In this document: positions 22,719 to 44,673 of the stretch, in pieces
How the letters are laid out: every line of letters begins with the position of its first letter
Position numbering within the stretch: position 1 is the first letter of the stretch
Source: Rhizodiscina lignyota
Taxonomy: Eukaryota; Ascomycota; Dothideomycetes; Aulographales; Rhizodiscinaceae
Direction of reading: 5' to 3'
NCBI GenBank assembly: GCA_010015805.1
Contig: ML978133.1
Location: 248,001-312,000 of the forward strand
Length of the DNA stretch: 64,000 bases
Program-made: the position numbers and the translations under genes
Notes under the pieces: model-generated
What the model was told of the DNA's origin: nothing
The model's database searches: none
The model's input: only the letters and a program-made list of their open reading frames with translations

Positions 22719-24292
22719 ATGGCCGCACCACAGCGAAGCCTCGCTCAAGACCTCTTTGAGGATATGGGCCGTAAGGTTGCTGAGGCAAGCAAATCTAGTT
22801 TTGAAGAAGATGACGAGAACTCTAAGCTCGTGGAAGAGATCGAGTCTCTGTGCATGAACTGCCATGAACAAGTAAGCTATAATTATTTTCTAAGATGAAT
22901 TCGACGGGCGACTGCTAATATATACACTTGTCCTAGGGCACTACGCGCCTCCTCCTGACTCGTATTCCTTTCTTCAGAGAAATCGTCATCATGTCCTTCT
23001 CCTGTCCTCATTGTGGCTTTCAAAACTCCGAAGTCCAGCCCGCAGGGACCATACAAGAGCGCGGGACAAAGTTCACTCTGAAGGTGGAGAGTGCAGATGA
23101 TTTGAACCGGCAGATTATAAAGAGCGATACTTGCACATTCCGGATCGAAGATATCGATCTTGAGATACCACCTGGGAGAGGGCAACTCACGAACGTCGAG
23201 GGTATCCTTACGATGATCGCCACGGATTTACAGAGCAAGCAGGACGAGCGGAAGGAGAAGATACCGGAAGTATGGGCACAGCTTGAAACGGTCATCAAGA
23301 CCGTCCAAGACATGGCTTCCGGCGCGAAGCTGCCATTCACAACCACGCTCGATGACCCGGCCGGTAACTCTTGGATCCAATTCTCCGCAAACGATTCTAC
23401 TACGAAATACTTCAGACACGAATACCCTCGCAGCCCGGCACAAAATGAAGCTTTAGGCCTCGGAGATGGCTCTGCTACAGAAACTGCAGAGACCGGCCCT
23501 AGTGGCGAGGCGCCCGGGACGCAGACGCGCCCAGAGTATCATGCATCACACATGTACCCTGCGATGCCTGCAGAACAAAATGTCAACAATGTGGACGATG
23601 ATGAAGACATTGTTGAAAATCAAGTGTACAGCTTCCCGGCTCAATGTCCAGGATGCACCAAGCCGTGCGCCACCAACATGAAGATGGTGCGGATACCACA
23701 TTTCAAGGAGGTTATCATAATGAGCACTGTTTGCGACCATTGTGGCTATCGGAACAATGAAGTCAAAACAGGGGGTGAAGTCCCCGAACTCGGCCGTCGC
23801 ATCACCCTACGTGTCGAAAGACCAGAGGATCTATCCCGCGATATCTTAAAATCCGAAACATGTGGTCTCTATTGCCCCGAGATCAAGTTGTCCGTCGAAC
23901 CGGGTACGCTTGGAGGCCGGTTCACAACCGTCGAGGGCCTACTCAGGCAGATCCGTGACGACCTGCACAACAACATCTTCTCCGATGACGATGCTGGCGG
24001 AGGAGATAGCATGAACGCTGATGAAAGAGAACGGTGGAACTCGTTCTTTTCCGATGTCGACAGTGCGATCGAGGGGAAGGAGAAGTTCACGCTGGTGCTG
24101 GAGGACCCTTTCGCAGCGAGCTACGTGCAAAGCTACGCGGATGAAGGAGCAGACGAGCAGCTCACAGTTGAAGATTACGAGAGAACCGAACAAGAAGAGG
24201 AGGAGTTGGGCTTGAAGGATATTAAAACCGACCATTACGAGGAAAACAAGAAGGATGCAGGAGAAACAAAGGAAGAGTCCGGCGAGAGGTGA
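22719..24292 (+). CDS. ZPR1: Zinc finger protein ZPR1
   Basis: Predicted 502 aa in two exons, 22719-22871 and 22937-24292, with a 65-nt intron. ZPR1 is an essential eukaryotic protein that binds eEF1A and aids its folding, and shuttles between cytosol and nucleus. The two duplicated ZPR1 modules are complete. The first zinc site is CMNCHEQ plus CPHCGFQNSE, followed by GTKFTLKVES. The second is CPGCTKPC plus CDHCGYRNNEVKTGGEVPE, then GRRITLRVE. Each is followed by the module-specific fold with LTNVEGIL or FTTVEGLL. The C-terminus is acidic (EEEELGLKDIKTD). Length matches the family. Confidence 0.95.
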
Positions 24293-37638: not shown

Positions 37639-38911
37639 ATGGTGAGGAACCATGAGGGTGTAGGGACGAGGGAGATGGTGGTGCCGCAATCTATTCCACA
37701 GATCAGGATGAGCATCCGCAATATCATTCATGGGCACCTTGACAAATATAAAGATGTAAAACGGGGAGGGCCGGCGAGGCCTGCCACTTTGATTGTCGTT
37801 GAGTTTCATATCCAACACAACAGCGCGTATCAGCGCGTGAGAAGAGCCGAGATCACCGTATCGTTCGCAACATTGCCGGGGGACGATCCTTCGATCAATC
37901 AGGAAGTATATCGCATTGCTCCTAACGGCGGGTACCTTCTGGTATGTTACCGAAGCAATTCTTTTCTCCCTCATCTACTGGAATCAACATAGTGGCATCA
38001 CCTTAGTGTCTGAAGTCTACAATATTTCCAGTTATGATTAGCTGACAAGTTGTACCAAGCTTCCAGATGAAGACCATCCTGGACAATTCAAGCTGGCGAG
38101 AAAAGATAGTTATGCAGATCATCAAGACGAGATAGCAATGTCGGGCTTTGTGAACTTCTCAGCTCACGCCCAGGTCACTAACAATGACTTGGAGAACGCT
38201 GCCACTTGGCAGATCAACGAAAATAAGAAGACGAAAGTGGGAATCCCTAACCTTATCCAGACTGCGCTTTTGCTTCGACCACCTAGTGATGAAGGAAGAC
38301 TCGAAATGGAGCTGCACACCAAACTCATAACATCTGGATTCTCTTTTGAGCCCGCTGCGAGATTTAACCTCCTTAGTAACGAAACCATAAGCTTCGATCC
38401 GAACCTTCAATTCCCGACCTTAGATGGAGTTAATTCCCAGAACCTTGACAATGTCGATCTAGCGATGTTCTTCAAGGCTGTATTCACTCGTCAAGACTCG
38501 ATCACAGCTACAGGTGACACCGAGCAACAAAGGCAAGGTGCCATCCAAACGGCCCTGGGAGCCATAGCACATAAGGAGGCCAAAAAGCAAAGCCGCTCAC
38601 CCCGACCTCCGAGCGCGAAACTCGATGAAAAGATTCAGCCTGGAGAATACTTTTATGCGGAACTGTGGAGCCGTGACTCCACACGTGCGCCAATTACCAA
38701 CAGAACTGTAGCTGTTTCCGGATCGAAATTTGATCCAGAAATTAAAGCGCTAGACAAGACCGTGCTTGAGAAATACTTCTCTTGGGTGCATGAAGACCCG
38801 CCTCTGCCCTCAACGGTAAGACAGATTCAATTTCATGCTTAAATGCACTGGCAAACGGGAATCCAGCGATTGGCATTTGTTGCTCCCCGAAGGTTCGCAC
38901 ATCTCTTTTAA
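37639..38911 (+). CDS. Fungal protein of unknown function, likely N-terminal part of the following CorA-like gene
   Basis: Exons 37639-37941, 38042-38815 and 38867-38911 join in frame; the last adds RLAFVAPRRFAHLF and stops. The N-terminal part includes ATLIVVEFHIQHNSAYQRVRRAEITVSF and PSINQEVYRIAPNGGYLL. The second exon reads KLPDEDHPGQFKLARKDSYA, then MSGFVNFSAHAQ and KVGIPNLIQTALLLRPPSDEGR, beta-rich with no known catalytic motif. It resembles a widespread family of fungal proteins of unknown function. Just past the stop at 38911, coding-like pieces continue in shifting frames towards the open frame at 39149, so this may be the front of one longer, now interrupted gene. Confidence 0.45.
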
Positions 38912-39148: not shown

Positions 39149-40153
39149 AATTTGAACGATTTGAATGCCCTCTTCAGTAAGCAAACATGGCTCTCGCTGA
39201 CGGAATTCTTCCAACTACCAACCGAATTTTCCAGTTTCCGTGGGCATGATAGCGGCATCTGGCTGCGAGCGATCTCTAGTCAAGGCCAAGATTTGGCGTA
39301 TTTCTACCAGACCCCATTTTACCCAGAAAAGTTTTGGTCTCTGGTCCTGTTTATCCGTGGAAACTCAACAAACGGAGCTGCTGTACTGCAATCGGACAGC
39401 AAAATAGACTGCCAGGGTGTTCTGCAAAGAGCGAAGGAATATGGCTCCAGGGGCTCACATCCGCTGATAGTACTCGTATTACTTTTCCAAGATCACGTCT
39501 TGGGAACTGCGGATAAATTCAAAGACGTGTCAACGAAAATCCAGGCTATAGATGCCGATCTTCTGGCCGAACTGAAAGCCGCACAGGGCCACAAGACCAA
39601 ACTCAGGGTGTCCGAGTATGGCACGTTAAGCCATCGAATCTACGAGGCTCGGATGGAACTGGTTGAACTTCAGCGACGACGCGAATTTGAAGCCCAAGTT
39701 GGCAAGACTTTAAAGAATGATGTGAAAGAGGAGACATCTCTCATTACCCGTGTGGACATGTTCACGGGACTCTCCGCCAGCCACGAACTCGGCATCCAGA
39801 ACTTTCCCGATAGAATCGAAAGCCAGCGTACGGTTCTGTATAGCTTAATCGCTCAGCAAGATGCCAGAGTTCAGTTCAAGCTAGCCCGAGAAACTACGAA
39901 AGACTCGAAAGCCATGAAGACGCTTGCAGTAATCACCATTCTACTGCTCCCCGGCACGTTCATGGCTACGTTATTTGCCGTTCCGGATCTGATTACGCTC
40001 AAACCCAGAGCGAAAGTCCAGATATACTGTGGGGTTACTGTACCTGCCACTTTTGTGTTGATCGTGTGCTGGTGGCTGTGGGTGCGAAGAAGTGCGTCGC
40101 ACGTACCGGGCGAAGATGAAGAAGCTACGAGGGAGAAGGCGAAATGGCTGTAA
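39149..40153 (+). pseudogene. CorA-like membrane protein, C-terminal part without its own start
   Basis: An open frame of about 1 kb with no ATG at its beginning (in-frame stop at 39092-39094, then no Met before NLNDLNALFSKQTW). It encodes a soluble domain (QLPTEFSSFRGHDSGIWLRA, LAYFYQTPFYPEKFWSLVLF), a coiled coil (YEARMELVELQRRREFE), and two C-terminal membrane segments: MKTLAVITILLLPGTFMATLFAVP and a second starting CGVTVPATFVLIVCWWLW. The KDSKAMKTLAVITILLLPGTFMATLF element is characteristic of fungal CorA-like (Mg2+ transporter-like) proteins. Upstream, 38867-39148 holds coding-like pieces in different frames (for example FFCSNFGWLGPRFGH and VDVKVKLLAV). I read the locus as a host gene with frame damage, or a gene with an unresolved splice pattern. 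Confidence 0.5.
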
Positions 40154-40837
40154 TTGGAGCTCTGTATCGAGAGGGCTTTTATCTGGGCCAGGTCTATAGA
40201 GGGTTGCTTCCACTGTTCCACAAGAGCTGATTCTGAATTATAGCTAGGCATATCGTGACTCCAATTGTTTCTCTATAAATTATTAAATTGGTTATGCCAT
40301 TGTTGAACTTGCCCAGAAAAGAAATCGGTCAGCAGATTTGTGTGAGAAATTATATAGATATTCTCGCTTACGTCGATAATTAGCAATTGTTCCGAGAACT
40401 CTTACCACTTCCGCTCTATCTTATATATTCTCGATCTGTGCAAAGTCTTCTGGTGAAAAATTAATCTCTCGATTTTAAGGAATAGCATATATAAAATGGT
40501 GTGGCCGGAAGAGTGTATCTATGACCGAGTAAGTTCGCTTGCTTCTTTTGTGCAGCATTAGCTGTAATCCGTATCAAGGCTACGATGCGTCACACTTAAT
40601 TTTCCTGTTCTGGCACTCAGTACCAAACTGCAGTCCCTTATTCTATACCATAGGTTTAATAGAAGTGGGAAGTCTCCTTGCGTCATGGAATCACGTTATA
40701 CTAGCTCTAGTTCGTGGTAAACCTTAGTGGACAAAACCGCCATCATGGTATCTCCACATAGCATAAATACGATGCAAACTTTACTTCATACTCTGCCAGT
40801 CCTAAAACCTTTCCGATCTATTTTCTGTTCCTCCAAA
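40154..40837. other. AT-rich intergenic region upstream of the uS14-like gene
   Basis: About 680 bp, visibly richer in A and T than the neighbourhood. It includes an ACCTTAGTGG element at about 40721, which partly matches the fungal zinc-response consensus ACCTTNAAGGT, about 110 nt before the next start. The match is weak. Confidence 0.3.
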
Positions 40838-41110
40838 ATGGCGCACGACAAAGTCTGGTACTCCCTCAAAAGCAACGTCAACTACGGAAAGGGCCAGCGC
40901 AAATGGTTGCAATCTATAGTACACCATTTTGCAAACTGTGAGCGCTGATTCTTGATCAATAGTCGCGTGGCGGGCGAAAAGGGTAATGGCCTTATTCGCA
41001 AGTATGGCCTGAATATGTCGCGACAGGCTTTCAGGGAGAAAGCTGAAGACATGGGCTGGAAGAAGGTTCGTGTAGAAGCGTACTTTTTGCTGGAAGAGAT
41101 TAGCCATTAA
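40838..41110 (+). CDS. uS14/eS29 (Rps29) paralogue lacking zinc-binding cysteines
   Basis: Predicted 71 aa in two exons, 40838-40905 and 40963-41110. The start [10 protein letters not shown] and YGKGQRK match the N-terminus of ribosomal protein uS14 (yeast Rps29), and the second exon carries the core [20 protein letters not shown]. Normal eukaryotic uS14 binds zinc with CxxC...CxxC (CRVC and CRQC). Here these read CRVA and SRQA, so three of four Cys are replaced by Ala or Ser, and the first exists only through the splice junction (TG|T). The donor, GTTGCA, is weak. The tail is about 13 residues longer than usual. It is either a zinc-independent paralogue or a decayed copy; the intact core argues for selection. 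It sits 519 bp before the CobW gene, same strand. Confidence 0.6.
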
Positions 41111-41629
41111 CGACGGATTATACAGTATCGATAAACCATGAGGATGGGATGAAGACCCTTGGATAAGAGTGATCATTGAGGATCTTTGGATAGATTGGGA
41201 TAAAACTGGTGAAGCGCGCGACTCGACTAAGCACGTTACCAGCATATTGACCTGTGACGCCTGCTTCAATCAACTGCAGCTTAATCATCTGAATCCCGCA
41301 CACATTGCGACACTTTGTCTAGTTACGTGCAGATTGCCTTTATCCTCTCACGAGCTTTGTGTTTGAATTTTGTGGCCTAGCATAATGATGATCAAGAGCA
41401 TTGTTAATTTGTTAGCATGACATTCCGAGCCTCCAGCCTTGACCATTAGGGTGAGTATCCACAGCATACCATGATGGCTTATTATGTTTGTGTTTGCAAA
41501 AGAGACAGATATGATTGGCCCCTGCCTTACACCATGTTAAGTAAGAAAATATATAAAGCTCTTTCGCGCTGAAGCTTTAATCCACTGTCGCCAGGTGCTG
41601 ACTTCTTGAGCAGCAAGGACGGAGCGAAA
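41111..41629. other. Intergenic region between the uS14-like and CobW genes
   Basis: About 520 bp without a supported gene. It should contain the 3' end of the uS14-like gene and the CobW promoter. No clear zinc-response element is seen. Confidence 0.3.
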
Positions 41630-43472
41630 ATGGTTGCCACGCGATCCATCACGAAGCAGAACAACGTCCTCAAGGTCAAGTCCCTTGCTGTCACGGAAAA
41701 GTCAAAGAGAGAGCAAGTACAGGTATTGCCCGTTACTTTGCTGTCTGGGTTTCTGGTCAGAAGTCCTAGCATCAATCAATGGAGAATACGCTGACAACGA
41801 AAATTCAGGGAAGCGGAAAGACTACACTTTTGCAGCATATCCTACGCAGCAATCATGGCCTACGTATCGCTATGATTGTCAACGATATCGGCTCGTGGGT
41901 CTAGAGCCGCCCACACATAACAGACTTCCACTAACGCAGATTCCCAAGCATCAACGTCGACGCATCTCTCATTCGCAGTACCCATCACCTCACCAAAACA
42001 GAAGAGAAAGTCGTAGCCCTCCAGAACGGCTGCATCTGCTGCACGCTCCGTGGCGATCTACTTGAGGAATTAATCCGTCTCTCTGAGCTCGCCGAGTTCG
42101 ACTATGTCATAATTGAGAGTAGTGGGATCAGCGAGCCAGAGCAAGTTGCTGAGACCTTTGATGCGAGGTTGGCGGAGCAACTAACTATTGTTGGAGGAGC
42201 TGGGGCCGAGGGGAACGGACTGGATGAGGCGACACTTGCTGCGCTCCAGAGGTTAAAGGATGCTGGTGGGCTGGAGAAGTTTGCGAGACTGGATACGACG
42301 GTTACGGTGGTCGATGCTTTTACCATATTTAACGATTTCGACACCGATGAATTGCTGTCCTCACGGCGGGATGACGTTGTCCCCGAAGATGAGCGGACAA
42401 TTTCTGATCTCATGGTCGACCAGATCGAATTCGCCGATGTTATCGTTCTCAACAAAGTGGACATGGTCAGCAAAGACACCAAATGCCGGATCAAAGACCT
42501 CATCAAAAAGTTGAATCACCGCGCCAAGGTGCTGGAGAGTGAGTTCGGTAGGATTGAGGTTGAGCAGATCGTCAACACGGGATTGTTCAATATGGAGCTT
42601 GCGCAGACAGGTTATGGGTGGTTGCAGGATTTGCATGAGATGATGTTGCGAGAGGTTAACGGGAAGAAGACGGTCACACCGAAGCCTGAGACAGAGGAGT
42701 GAGTTTCATTGATGAGATGTTCGAAGCTGTGGGAAAGCTGACAGTGCGGTGCAGATACAATGTGCGCAACTTTGTGTACACTCGTCATCGACCGTTTCAT
42801 CCTCGTCGATTGTTCGAGTTGGTGTATGATAAATTCATCCTGCGACAGCAGTTCGACGATGATGGAGAACTCGAAGACGAGGATGTTCCCGAGGAATGCG
42901 ATGACGATGAAGACGATGAAGACGATGACGACCCCCTTTTCTCTCCCCCAAGCAACGAAACCATTCTCGCCAACAAAGCCGCCCACCCTCTATTTGCAAA
43001 GCTGTTTCGCTCAAAGGGCGAGATATGGTTAGCGACCCGCCCTGACCGCGCCGGCGAATGGTCGCAAGCTGGTGCCATGCTGACCTTACAAGGTGGGCGG
43101 CCTTGGTTCTGCGTCACTGATCCTGTTGAGTGGCAGACGGGAAACAAGGAAATTGATGAATTGGTGGAACACGATATAAAATCTGGTGGTGTCTGGGGTG
43201 ATCGGAGACAGGAATTGGTCTTTATCGGGGAGAATTTGGACATCAAAGGAGTAGAAAAGGAGCTTGATAAATGTCTCTTGAACGACGAGGAGTGGAGAAT
43301 ATGGCAGGGAATCATGATGGATGGTGAAAGGCCGGATGGTGGGGACCAAAGTGAGAAAGAGGTGAAGTTTGAAAGACTGGCTGAGGCATTTGAAGATGTA
43401 TTTCCGGACTGGATTGATGATAGGCATGATCACGATCATACGGACGGTGATCATCCTGGGCATGTCCACTGA
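41630..43472 (+). CDS. CobW/COG0523 (Zng1-type) GTPase metallochaperone
   Basis: Predicted 559 aa from exons 41630-41755, 41809-41894, 41949-42698 and 42755-43472. COG0523 proteins use GTP to deliver metals; the eukaryotic Zng1 branch passes zinc to methionine aminopeptidase. The Walker A motif GFLGSGKTTLL forms across the first intron. The metal-binding CxCC motif is in NGCICCTLRGDLLEEL, Walker B/switch in DYVIIESSGISEPEQV, and the guanine motif NKVD in VIVLNKVDMVS. The C-terminal CobW domain starts RNFVYTRHRPFHPRRLFELV, is interrupted by an acidic run (DDDEDDEDDDD), and ends in a His/Asp-rich tail (DDRHDHDHTDGDHPGHVH), a probable metal-binding segment. Donor 1 is GTCAGA, which is unusual. 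Confidence 0.93.
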
Positions 43473-43552: not shown

Positions 43553-44673
43553 CTATCTAGGCAGCAATTTGTGATTCTGCTTCCCCCACTTCATCTGATT
43601 ATCCACCTGATCAAACTTCTGTGAATTTGCCGCCTTTGCATAGACCCATTCCCTCGCCCGGCGAGCCACCGCCTCGCTCCTCTGTGCCTTCTTCTCAGCC
43701 AAGACGAGCGCCTGCCGCTGTTGCACCGAAACGCCTAGTATGCTCATCTCTTCACGGCGCGCCAGTTGTCGGCCCGACGGCAGCTGCGGTCCGACGTCCA
43801 GTGGCAACGATTCTGCATCCTCGGAACCCGAGGGCAAAGCTTTCATCGTCGATTCCGCGAGACTCCGTCTCCTGGACGCTTTCTTAGGCGCGGGAGCAGC
43901 ATGTCTCGAGCCGATCACCCTACCAGAGGCGAAGCGGATCTCCGTCGCCGACAGGTTAGTCAGGCGTTCCTGCTCCAGCGCGGCGGCGCCGTCCCCGTCG
44001 ACAGATGGCGGGGTCTCCCAGAAGTCGAGCAGTTCCGGTTCCCTGTCCAAGTTCAAGAGACAGTGTCCCTTGTCTCTCATGTGGCTCTGTATGCTCAGGG
44101 TCGAGGGCTTCGTGGCGCCGCAGTAAAGGCATTCGTGCCACGCCCGGACCTCCGTGGCCAGGTAACCCACGAAGCTCTGCATGTCTATCACCATCTCCGG
44201 GTCTGGGATGAACATCCCATGAGCTGTACGCATGTGCTCGAGGTTCGTTGCAAAGCCAGCGTCGTCGCTTGCGAAGCCCCGGCTGCAGAACAGACATTGG
44301 AAGGGCGATGCGCTTTCCTCGCACTCGTTGTCCGAGGCCTCCTCGTCGCTGCTGCTACTGCTGCTTCTGCTGCTGGTAGATGCCTTGCTGATGTCAACCT
44401 TTTTCTTGATCTGTGTGTCGAACGCATCGAGGGGGATCGGCGGTAATGATGCAATGCGCCGCTTGATGTTGTATACGCTGTTCTGATGTCAATTCTCATG
44501 ATCTAGACCATAGTTGTGTCGGTTTCGACGTACTGCCATGGCTCTTTCATGTGTATGCGCTGCTCCTGCCCATTTTGGAAAGAAATGTGGCACGTAGTGC
44601 ACAAGTAGGTTGTTGATGGGAGTGGGAACGGCGATTGCTCAGCATCCAGGTTGGAGGACGTAGCGCTTAGCAT
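43553..44673 (-). CDS. Cytoplasmic 60S subunit biogenesis factor Rei1/Reh1-like zinc finger protein
   Basis: Predicted 354 aa from exons 44673-44534 and 44477-43553. Rei1-type proteins act on late pre-60S particles in the cytoplasm, releasing export factors. The first finger (YLCTTCHISFQNGQEQRIHM) is followed by EPWHVYNIKRRIASLPPI across the intron, a family hallmark. Two more C2H2 fingers follow: CLFCSRGF...HMRTAH and CLYCGATKPSTLSIQSHM...H. The C-terminal part includes LLNLDREPELLDFW, FASGRVIGSRH and the ending MKWGKQNHKLLPR. It converges with the CobW gene with 80 bp between stops. Confidence 0.92.

Follow-up and report, generated by a model that had tools for sequence, protein, structure and literature searches.

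The window analysed here, by which we mean the whole 64-kb stretch of DNA, has the gene content of a fungus, with spliced genes that include ZPR1, DBR1, one for a CBF/Mak21 protein and one for a fungal Zn2Cys6 factor, and on its forward strand it carries side by side a gene for the ribosomal protein uS14 (Rps29) and a gene for a COG0523 GTPase. The uS14 gene begins at 40838, as an initial annotation of this DNA had proposed: its product matches the Pfam family Ribosomal_S14 (PF00253) with 39.2 bits against a cut-off of 27, over residues 7-58 of the protein and positions 2-53 of the 54 in the profile, and its best solved relatives are fungal uS14 proteins. Our gene model has three exons (40838-40905, 40963-41065 and 41126-41134) and gives a protein of 59 residues that ends in the canonical KYR. 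Exon 1 ends with the first two bases of a Cys codon (TG^T). Intron 1 (40906-40962, 57 nt), which we confirm as annotated before, has a weak donor (GTTGCA) and the acceptor AATAG, and the frame ends if it is retained.

The 3′ part of the gene differs from the earlier reading, in which two exons ended at 41110 with a 12-residue tail. That tail resembles no uS14 and is most likely a second intron, so that the gene probably ends at 41134. Removal of the inferred intron 2 (41066-41125, 60 nt, GTTCGT...TTATACAG) links exon 2 to TATCGATAA, which is the whole of exon 3 and encodes Tyr-Arg-stop, the usual end of fungal uS14, and the protein then closes with GWKKYR-stop. Of the 28 splice-site combinations listed for a second intron, 41066/41125 is the single one that yields both the canonical length and the canonical end after the Lys codon. 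The phmmer score against Kluyveromyces lactis uS14 rises from 64 bits with two exons to 67.6 bits with three, with an end-to-end alignment, and the Pfam score rises from 36.9 to 39.2 bits; the two-exon model was rejected. No RNA structure was found at the second intron (z-score 1.0). Compared with canonical uS14 the protein has two insertions, both of whole codons, which together add three residues.

A scan of genome contigs for uS14 yielded 59 loci, and 58 of these carry archaeal record titles. The remaining one, L046, is a 3218-base contig (JAMDCW010000143.1) filed in a Chloroflexi metagenome-assembled genome, and because it holds a gene for DNA polymerase alpha subunit B beside its RPS29, it is eukaryotic (fungal-like) contamination. 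The L046 protein has four cysteines and groups with those of C. thermophilum and N. crassa in a 12-row tree (support 89/95). Intron 1 of the L046 gene (GTGAGT, 76 nt) splits the same Cys codon, TG^T, as intron 1 of the window gene, and after the last Lys codon L046 has the donor GTACGA where the window gene has GTTCGT after the same Lys codon. No third exon was found with confidence in L046, where the only candidate requires a 31-base intron and ends in HR-stop. With L046 as the one comparison gene, the window gene thus matches the structure of a filamentous-fungal RPS29, and because these introns are shared it is, on gene structure, a descendant of an intron-bearing RPS29 and not a retrocopy. 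At the protein level the four-cysteine uS14/Rps29 sequences of L046, 7olc (which we take to be C. thermophilum) and 7r81 (which we take to be N. crassa) belong to the same family and share its core residues with the window protein; 33 of 54 aligned residues are identical in L046, and 7olc likewise ends in KYR. Compared with these four-cysteine proteins, the window protein lacks three of the four cysteines, has three more residues and is changed at four other invariant positions. A search of viral contigs gave no relatives for the 71-residue uS14 model, for the C-terminal half of the COG0523 protein or for alignment A1. The COG0523 protein had no hit in the assembly to which L046 belongs, a negative that carries no weight.

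As had been noted from the motifs CRVA and SRQA, three of the four zinc ligands of the window uS14 are replaced (C24A, C39S and C42A) and only the first Cys is kept; the codons concerned lie in exon 2 and are GCG at 40970-40972, TCG at 41018-41020 and GCT at 41027-41029, all on the forward strand. The earlier statement that each is at least two base changes away from a Cys codon also holds, the numbers being three for GCG, two for TCG and two to three for GCT. We think that the protein can probably neither hold nor need a structural zinc. With 11 four-cysteine eukaryotic uS14 sequences as reference, 27 columns are invariant (4 ligand columns and 23 others), and the window protein departs from seven of them, namely the three ligand columns and P11K, S18Q, I50M and F52W. 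Change is thus concentrated in the ligands (3/4 versus 4/23 of the other invariant residues; Fisher p 0.042). The contrast between the other invariant columns and the variable ones is weak (p 0.13 when only residues unseen in the 11 sequences are counted, 0.04 in comparison with C. thermophilum). The core, GLIRKYGLN and RQxFREKA, shows no change other than at the ligands.

That the gene stayed intact while its ligands were lost, another point of the initial annotation, agrees with the open frame, and its bearing on selection can be gauged by simulation. Under neutral drift to the observed amount of change at codon positions 1 and 2, with substitutions only and no indels, 0.46% of 200,000 simulated copies kept an open frame, the start, the stop and all four splice dinucleotides, a figure to be read with the knowledge that intact genes are noticed more easily than broken ones. 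A check by dN/dS, which had been suggested, gave a pairwise ratio of 0.20 against L046 (dN 0.355, dS 1.74). Because dS approaches saturation and constraint on the canonical branch is strong, the ratio cannot settle whether selection acts on the window copy, and we do not use it as proof. The window uS14 appears to have been under constraint for most of its history, which is no proof of constraint today. It could, on the other hand, be a once functional copy that is now being lost and whose place beside a COG0523 gene is coincidental. The weak donor of intron 1, the four further changes at invariant positions, a long branch, the codon use of an ordinary gene and an upstream region free of the ZafA core (the last three are described below) would all fit such decay. 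Yet the frame is undamaged and runs to the canonical KYR end, 19 of the 23 invariant residues outside the ligands are kept, and very few neutral copies survive intact in the simulation; we consider decay a possible but rather unlikely explanation.

The zinc-poor state has precedents in solved fungal ribosomes. Among the alignments listed (about 60 chains matched per search) there were 18 distinct PDB uS14 sequences, of which 15 have four cysteines and three only the first. These three records, two from K. lactis (CRIS..DRQS) and one from Schizosaccharomyces pombe (CAHT..SRQS), have lost the same three ligands and kept the same first Cys as the window protein (CRVA..SRQA). One more chain, 4v92_Bd, had a score similar to that of the four-cysteine yeast sequence. 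The K. lactis (3j80, 6fyx) and S. pombe (9axt, 9axv) proteins are chains modelled in their ribosomes; 6FYX and 6FYY were made with K. lactis 40S subunits according to the available part of PMC6298780, and 9AXV and 9RVU are linked to S. pombe in that of PMC13345908. Since three of 18 sequences have a single cysteine, the four-cysteine site is, as far as these chains represent it, not defining for the fungal uS14 family. Zinc-poor uS14 is already present in fungal ribosomes and that state alone is not new, so that a zinc-free fungal uS14 is in itself no novelty. Common origin of the three losses is neither shown nor excluded by the trees: with the ligand columns removed, the window row of the 12-row tree sits on a long branch whose position lacks good support, and ligand loss takes three changes on the best tree and a single change in 6% of bootstrap trees.

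These precedents raise the question of whether the fungus might have the zinc-poor form as its sole uS14, in which case there would be no switch but simply a zinc-free ribosomal protein. The ribosomes of K. lactis and S. pombe do carry such a protein, and neither species is known to have a second, four-cysteine uS14 gene. Both proteins are otherwise well conserved, however: with three of four ligands changed, K. lactis has no change among the other 23 invariant residues and S. pombe one (R22A), against four, together with three gained residues, in the window protein, which is strongly diverged and, unlike them, is encoded beside a COG0523 gene. The end branch of the window uS14 has a length of 0.7 compared with a median of 0.068, a tenfold difference in the 12-row tree, and AAA is used for four of its nine Lys codons but for none of the five in L046, a comparison of small numbers. 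Its Lys codons are thus less biased than those of the four-cysteine L046 gene and unlike those of a top-expressed gene (again with small numbers), and its codon use is like that of the ordinary genes of the window. Because of the branch length and the Lys codons, the window uS14 is likely not the main copy, and adding the three extra residues and the four other invariant changes, which set it apart from K. lactis and S. pombe, we infer an extra copy with modest expression. A sole zinc-poor uS14 is accordingly a quite unlikely alternative. A tblastn search found no second uS14 in the 64-kb window.

The neighbouring gene (41630-43472, forward strand) is intact, with exons at 41630-41755, 41809-41894, 41940-42698 and 42755-43472, three introns and a product of 562 residues. 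It had been called a COG0523 GTPase with a CxCC motif and a His-rich tail, and this is borne out by the motifs GFLGSGKT, GCICC, VIIESSG and NKVD and by matches to the Pfam families cobW (161.3 bits) and CobW_C (61 bits). An acidic stretch, DDDGELEDEDVPEECDDDEDDEDDDD, lies in its C-terminal half, and the His-rich C-terminal part reads HDHDHTDGDHPGHVH. Between the uS14 stop and the COG0523 start codon lie 495 bp (41135-41629), not 519 bp as first given. The same layout of COG0523 motifs, acidic stretch and His-rich C-terminal end is found in MchC of Aspergillus fumigatus (AFUA_8G02620), a likeness that we draw from the legend of Fig. 1 in PMC12584730, in which the acidic domain is given for MchC alone. 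Of the three A. fumigatus genes, just mchC is reported in the available text of that paper as directly induced by ZafA, about 2600-fold, and GTP cyclohydrolase I is the proposed client of its product; a table in PMC6070888 gives its induction in zinc starvation as 1155.6. The neighbour therefore looks like a zinc-starvation chaperone of the MchC type, as far as domain layout can tell, and the earlier claim that the uS14 gene sits beside a zinc-handling GTPase can be sharpened: the neighbour has the layout of the A. fumigatus chaperone most induced by zinc starvation. The string 'ribosom' does not occur in the text of the MchC paper (PMC12584730). Immediately beyond the COG0523 gene, a gene on the reverse strand (43553-44233) matches zf-C2H2_2, and for this reason the genes around the pair do not form a set that is zinc-free in general. 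By eye the product of this adjoining gene resembles Rei1, which is a 60S maturation factor.

The upstream DNA of the pair does not point to known zinc regulation. We found no ZafA core, CARGGT, in the 1200 bp upstream of either the uS14 or the COG0523 gene, by a consensus that is that of A. fumigatus and may not be the host's, and the intergenic stretch is likewise free of it; for A. fumigatus, at least three ZR motifs are listed in the promoter of mchC (PMC6070888, available part), compared with none at the window gene. The weak ACCTT element pointed out before does not survive inspection, as the two occurrences read ACCTTA (40721) and ACCTTT (40807) and neither is CARGGT or its complement. 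Zap1-like sites with up to two mismatches occur in the window at the frequency expected by chance (21 found, 21.5 expected). The missing core speaks against control of the pair by ZafA or Zap1. The ZR consensus of ZafA from A. fumigatus is matched in full at 37732 (reverse strand), 39408 (forward) and 55340 (reverse), the first about 400 bp upstream of an ORF at 38138; in 60 shuffles such matches averaged 0.57 and never numbered more than 3, and none of the three lies within 1.2 kb of the start codons of the pair. A 13-mer, GCCATCATGGTAT, occurs at 40739 upstream of the uS14 gene and as its reverse complement at 41466 upstream of the COG0523 gene, and nowhere else in the window; the observed number of 11-mers common to both upstream regions was reached in 6 of 200 shuffles. 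We regard this shared element in opposite orientations as a weak lead. An upstream region free of the ZafA core would also suit a role that has nothing to do with zinc, be it specialised (stage-specific, say) or non-ribosomal, in which the ligands went as a side effect of relaxed structural demand, and so would the changes and inserts that lie outside the ligands. The core, altered nowhere but at the ligands, argues against such a role, which we think improbable.

That the window gene encodes an intact, diverged, alternative and zinc-independent uS14 is the reading we prefer, and we would give it about an even chance of being right. We do so because intron 1 splits the same codon and the donor follows the same Lys codon as in L046, because the KYR end is reached through intron 2, the insertions are of whole codons and few neutral copies survive, because ligand loss is concentrated (3/4 versus 4/23), and because the neighbour has the acidic stretch reported only for MchC together with the His tail. 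Against this preferred reading stand the poor GTTGCA donor of intron 1 and P11K, S18Q, I50M and F52W, which are more changes outside the ligands than K. lactis or S. pombe shows; against a role in zinc physiology stand the missing ZafA core, that same donor, the ordinary codon use and the long branch.

A more specific and tentative proposal is that the zinc-free uS14 and the MchC-type chaperone have been retained as neighbours and work jointly when zinc is lacking, as a zinc-sparing ribosome module; we hold this to be less likely than its being wrong, though worth spelling out. Ribosomes are considered a major store of cellular zinc, and bacteria that run short of it replace zinc-binding ribosomal proteins by zinc-free copies. 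In bacteria, zinc-independent paralogues in Zur regulons occur beside COG0523/yciC genes, and C-minus S14 is among them (Haas 2009, PMC2770081; PMC13090322; available parts of both). The zinc-free version of a zinc protein that lies beside, or is co-regulated with, a COG0523 gene in these Zur systems has a counterpart here in adjacency and in a copy from which zinc ligands are gone, three of four being lost; the bacterial systems are, however, controlled by Zur, whereas the window gene is a eukaryotic gene that comes from RPS29, and no zinc-response site was found for it. Such a module might parallel the bacterial clusters of C-minus S14 and COG0523 genes and might have evolved independently from the fungus's own RPS29, a suggestion about which we are similarly doubtful.

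In the reading we prefer, the gene arose from an intron-bearing RPS29, by duplication at the DNA level if a four-cysteine copy still exists, and its product would be bound to 18S rRNA in the head of the 40S subunit, where K. lactis and S. pombe have their zinc-poor uS14. Its synthesis would be low or conditional, and it would serve in place of a four-cysteine uS14 whose gene lies elsewhere; should the neighbour act as MchC does, zinc shortage would be the most probable condition. Rps29 and other ribosomal proteins with a double CxxC fall in zinc-deficient yeast (PMC13090322, available part). In a shortage, the four-cysteine uS14 would compete poorly for the metal and its unmetallated form would limit 40S assembly; zinc-free uS14 could fold on rRNA without zinc, so that 40S assembly continues, and the MchC-type chaperone would meanwhile send the scarce zinc to other clients. 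Expression of the window uS14, its incorporation into ribosomes and its control by zinc are what we infer in this scheme.

In the open-licence literature of PMC we found no report of a zinc-free copy of uS14 in a fungus or another eukaryote, nor of a zinc switch of ribosomal proteins in a eukaryote. A zinc-poor fungal uS14 is not new in sequence, and in this literature we found no paper that remarks on it; the combination of a zinc-poor uS14 copy with an MchC-type gene appears to be new to the literature searched. If the window gene were induced in zinc shortage and its product found in ribosomes, eukaryotes would have their own, independent version of the bacterial switch, tied to a zinc chaperone. 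Among fungi, K. lactis, S. pombe and the window gene have each lost the zinc site of uS14, with the same three cysteines missing and the first one present, a pattern that makes the function of this zinc directly testable.

Some further observations concern zinc ligands in other uS14 loci and the remaining genes of the window. Halovenus salina has uS14 with two of the four cysteines (CPDTG/CLDTG..CRQS) on a plasmid (L053, 3001-3111) and on the chromosome (L058, 3001-3132), and its assembly has four PF00253 matches over the cut-off. Two cysteines are likewise present in L059 (Halovenus sp.), L014 (Woesearchaeota) and L038, which brings the two-cysteine form to five of the 58 loci with archaeal titles. 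In the window, an ORF at 39152-40153 (forward strand), shortly before the uS14 gene, resembles a fungal CorA-like membrane protein by eye, with no Pfam match at 0.001. About 18 kb upstream, the ZPR1 gene (22991-24292, forward strand) encodes a zinc-linked translation factor with two zinc ribbons and two jelly-roll domains.
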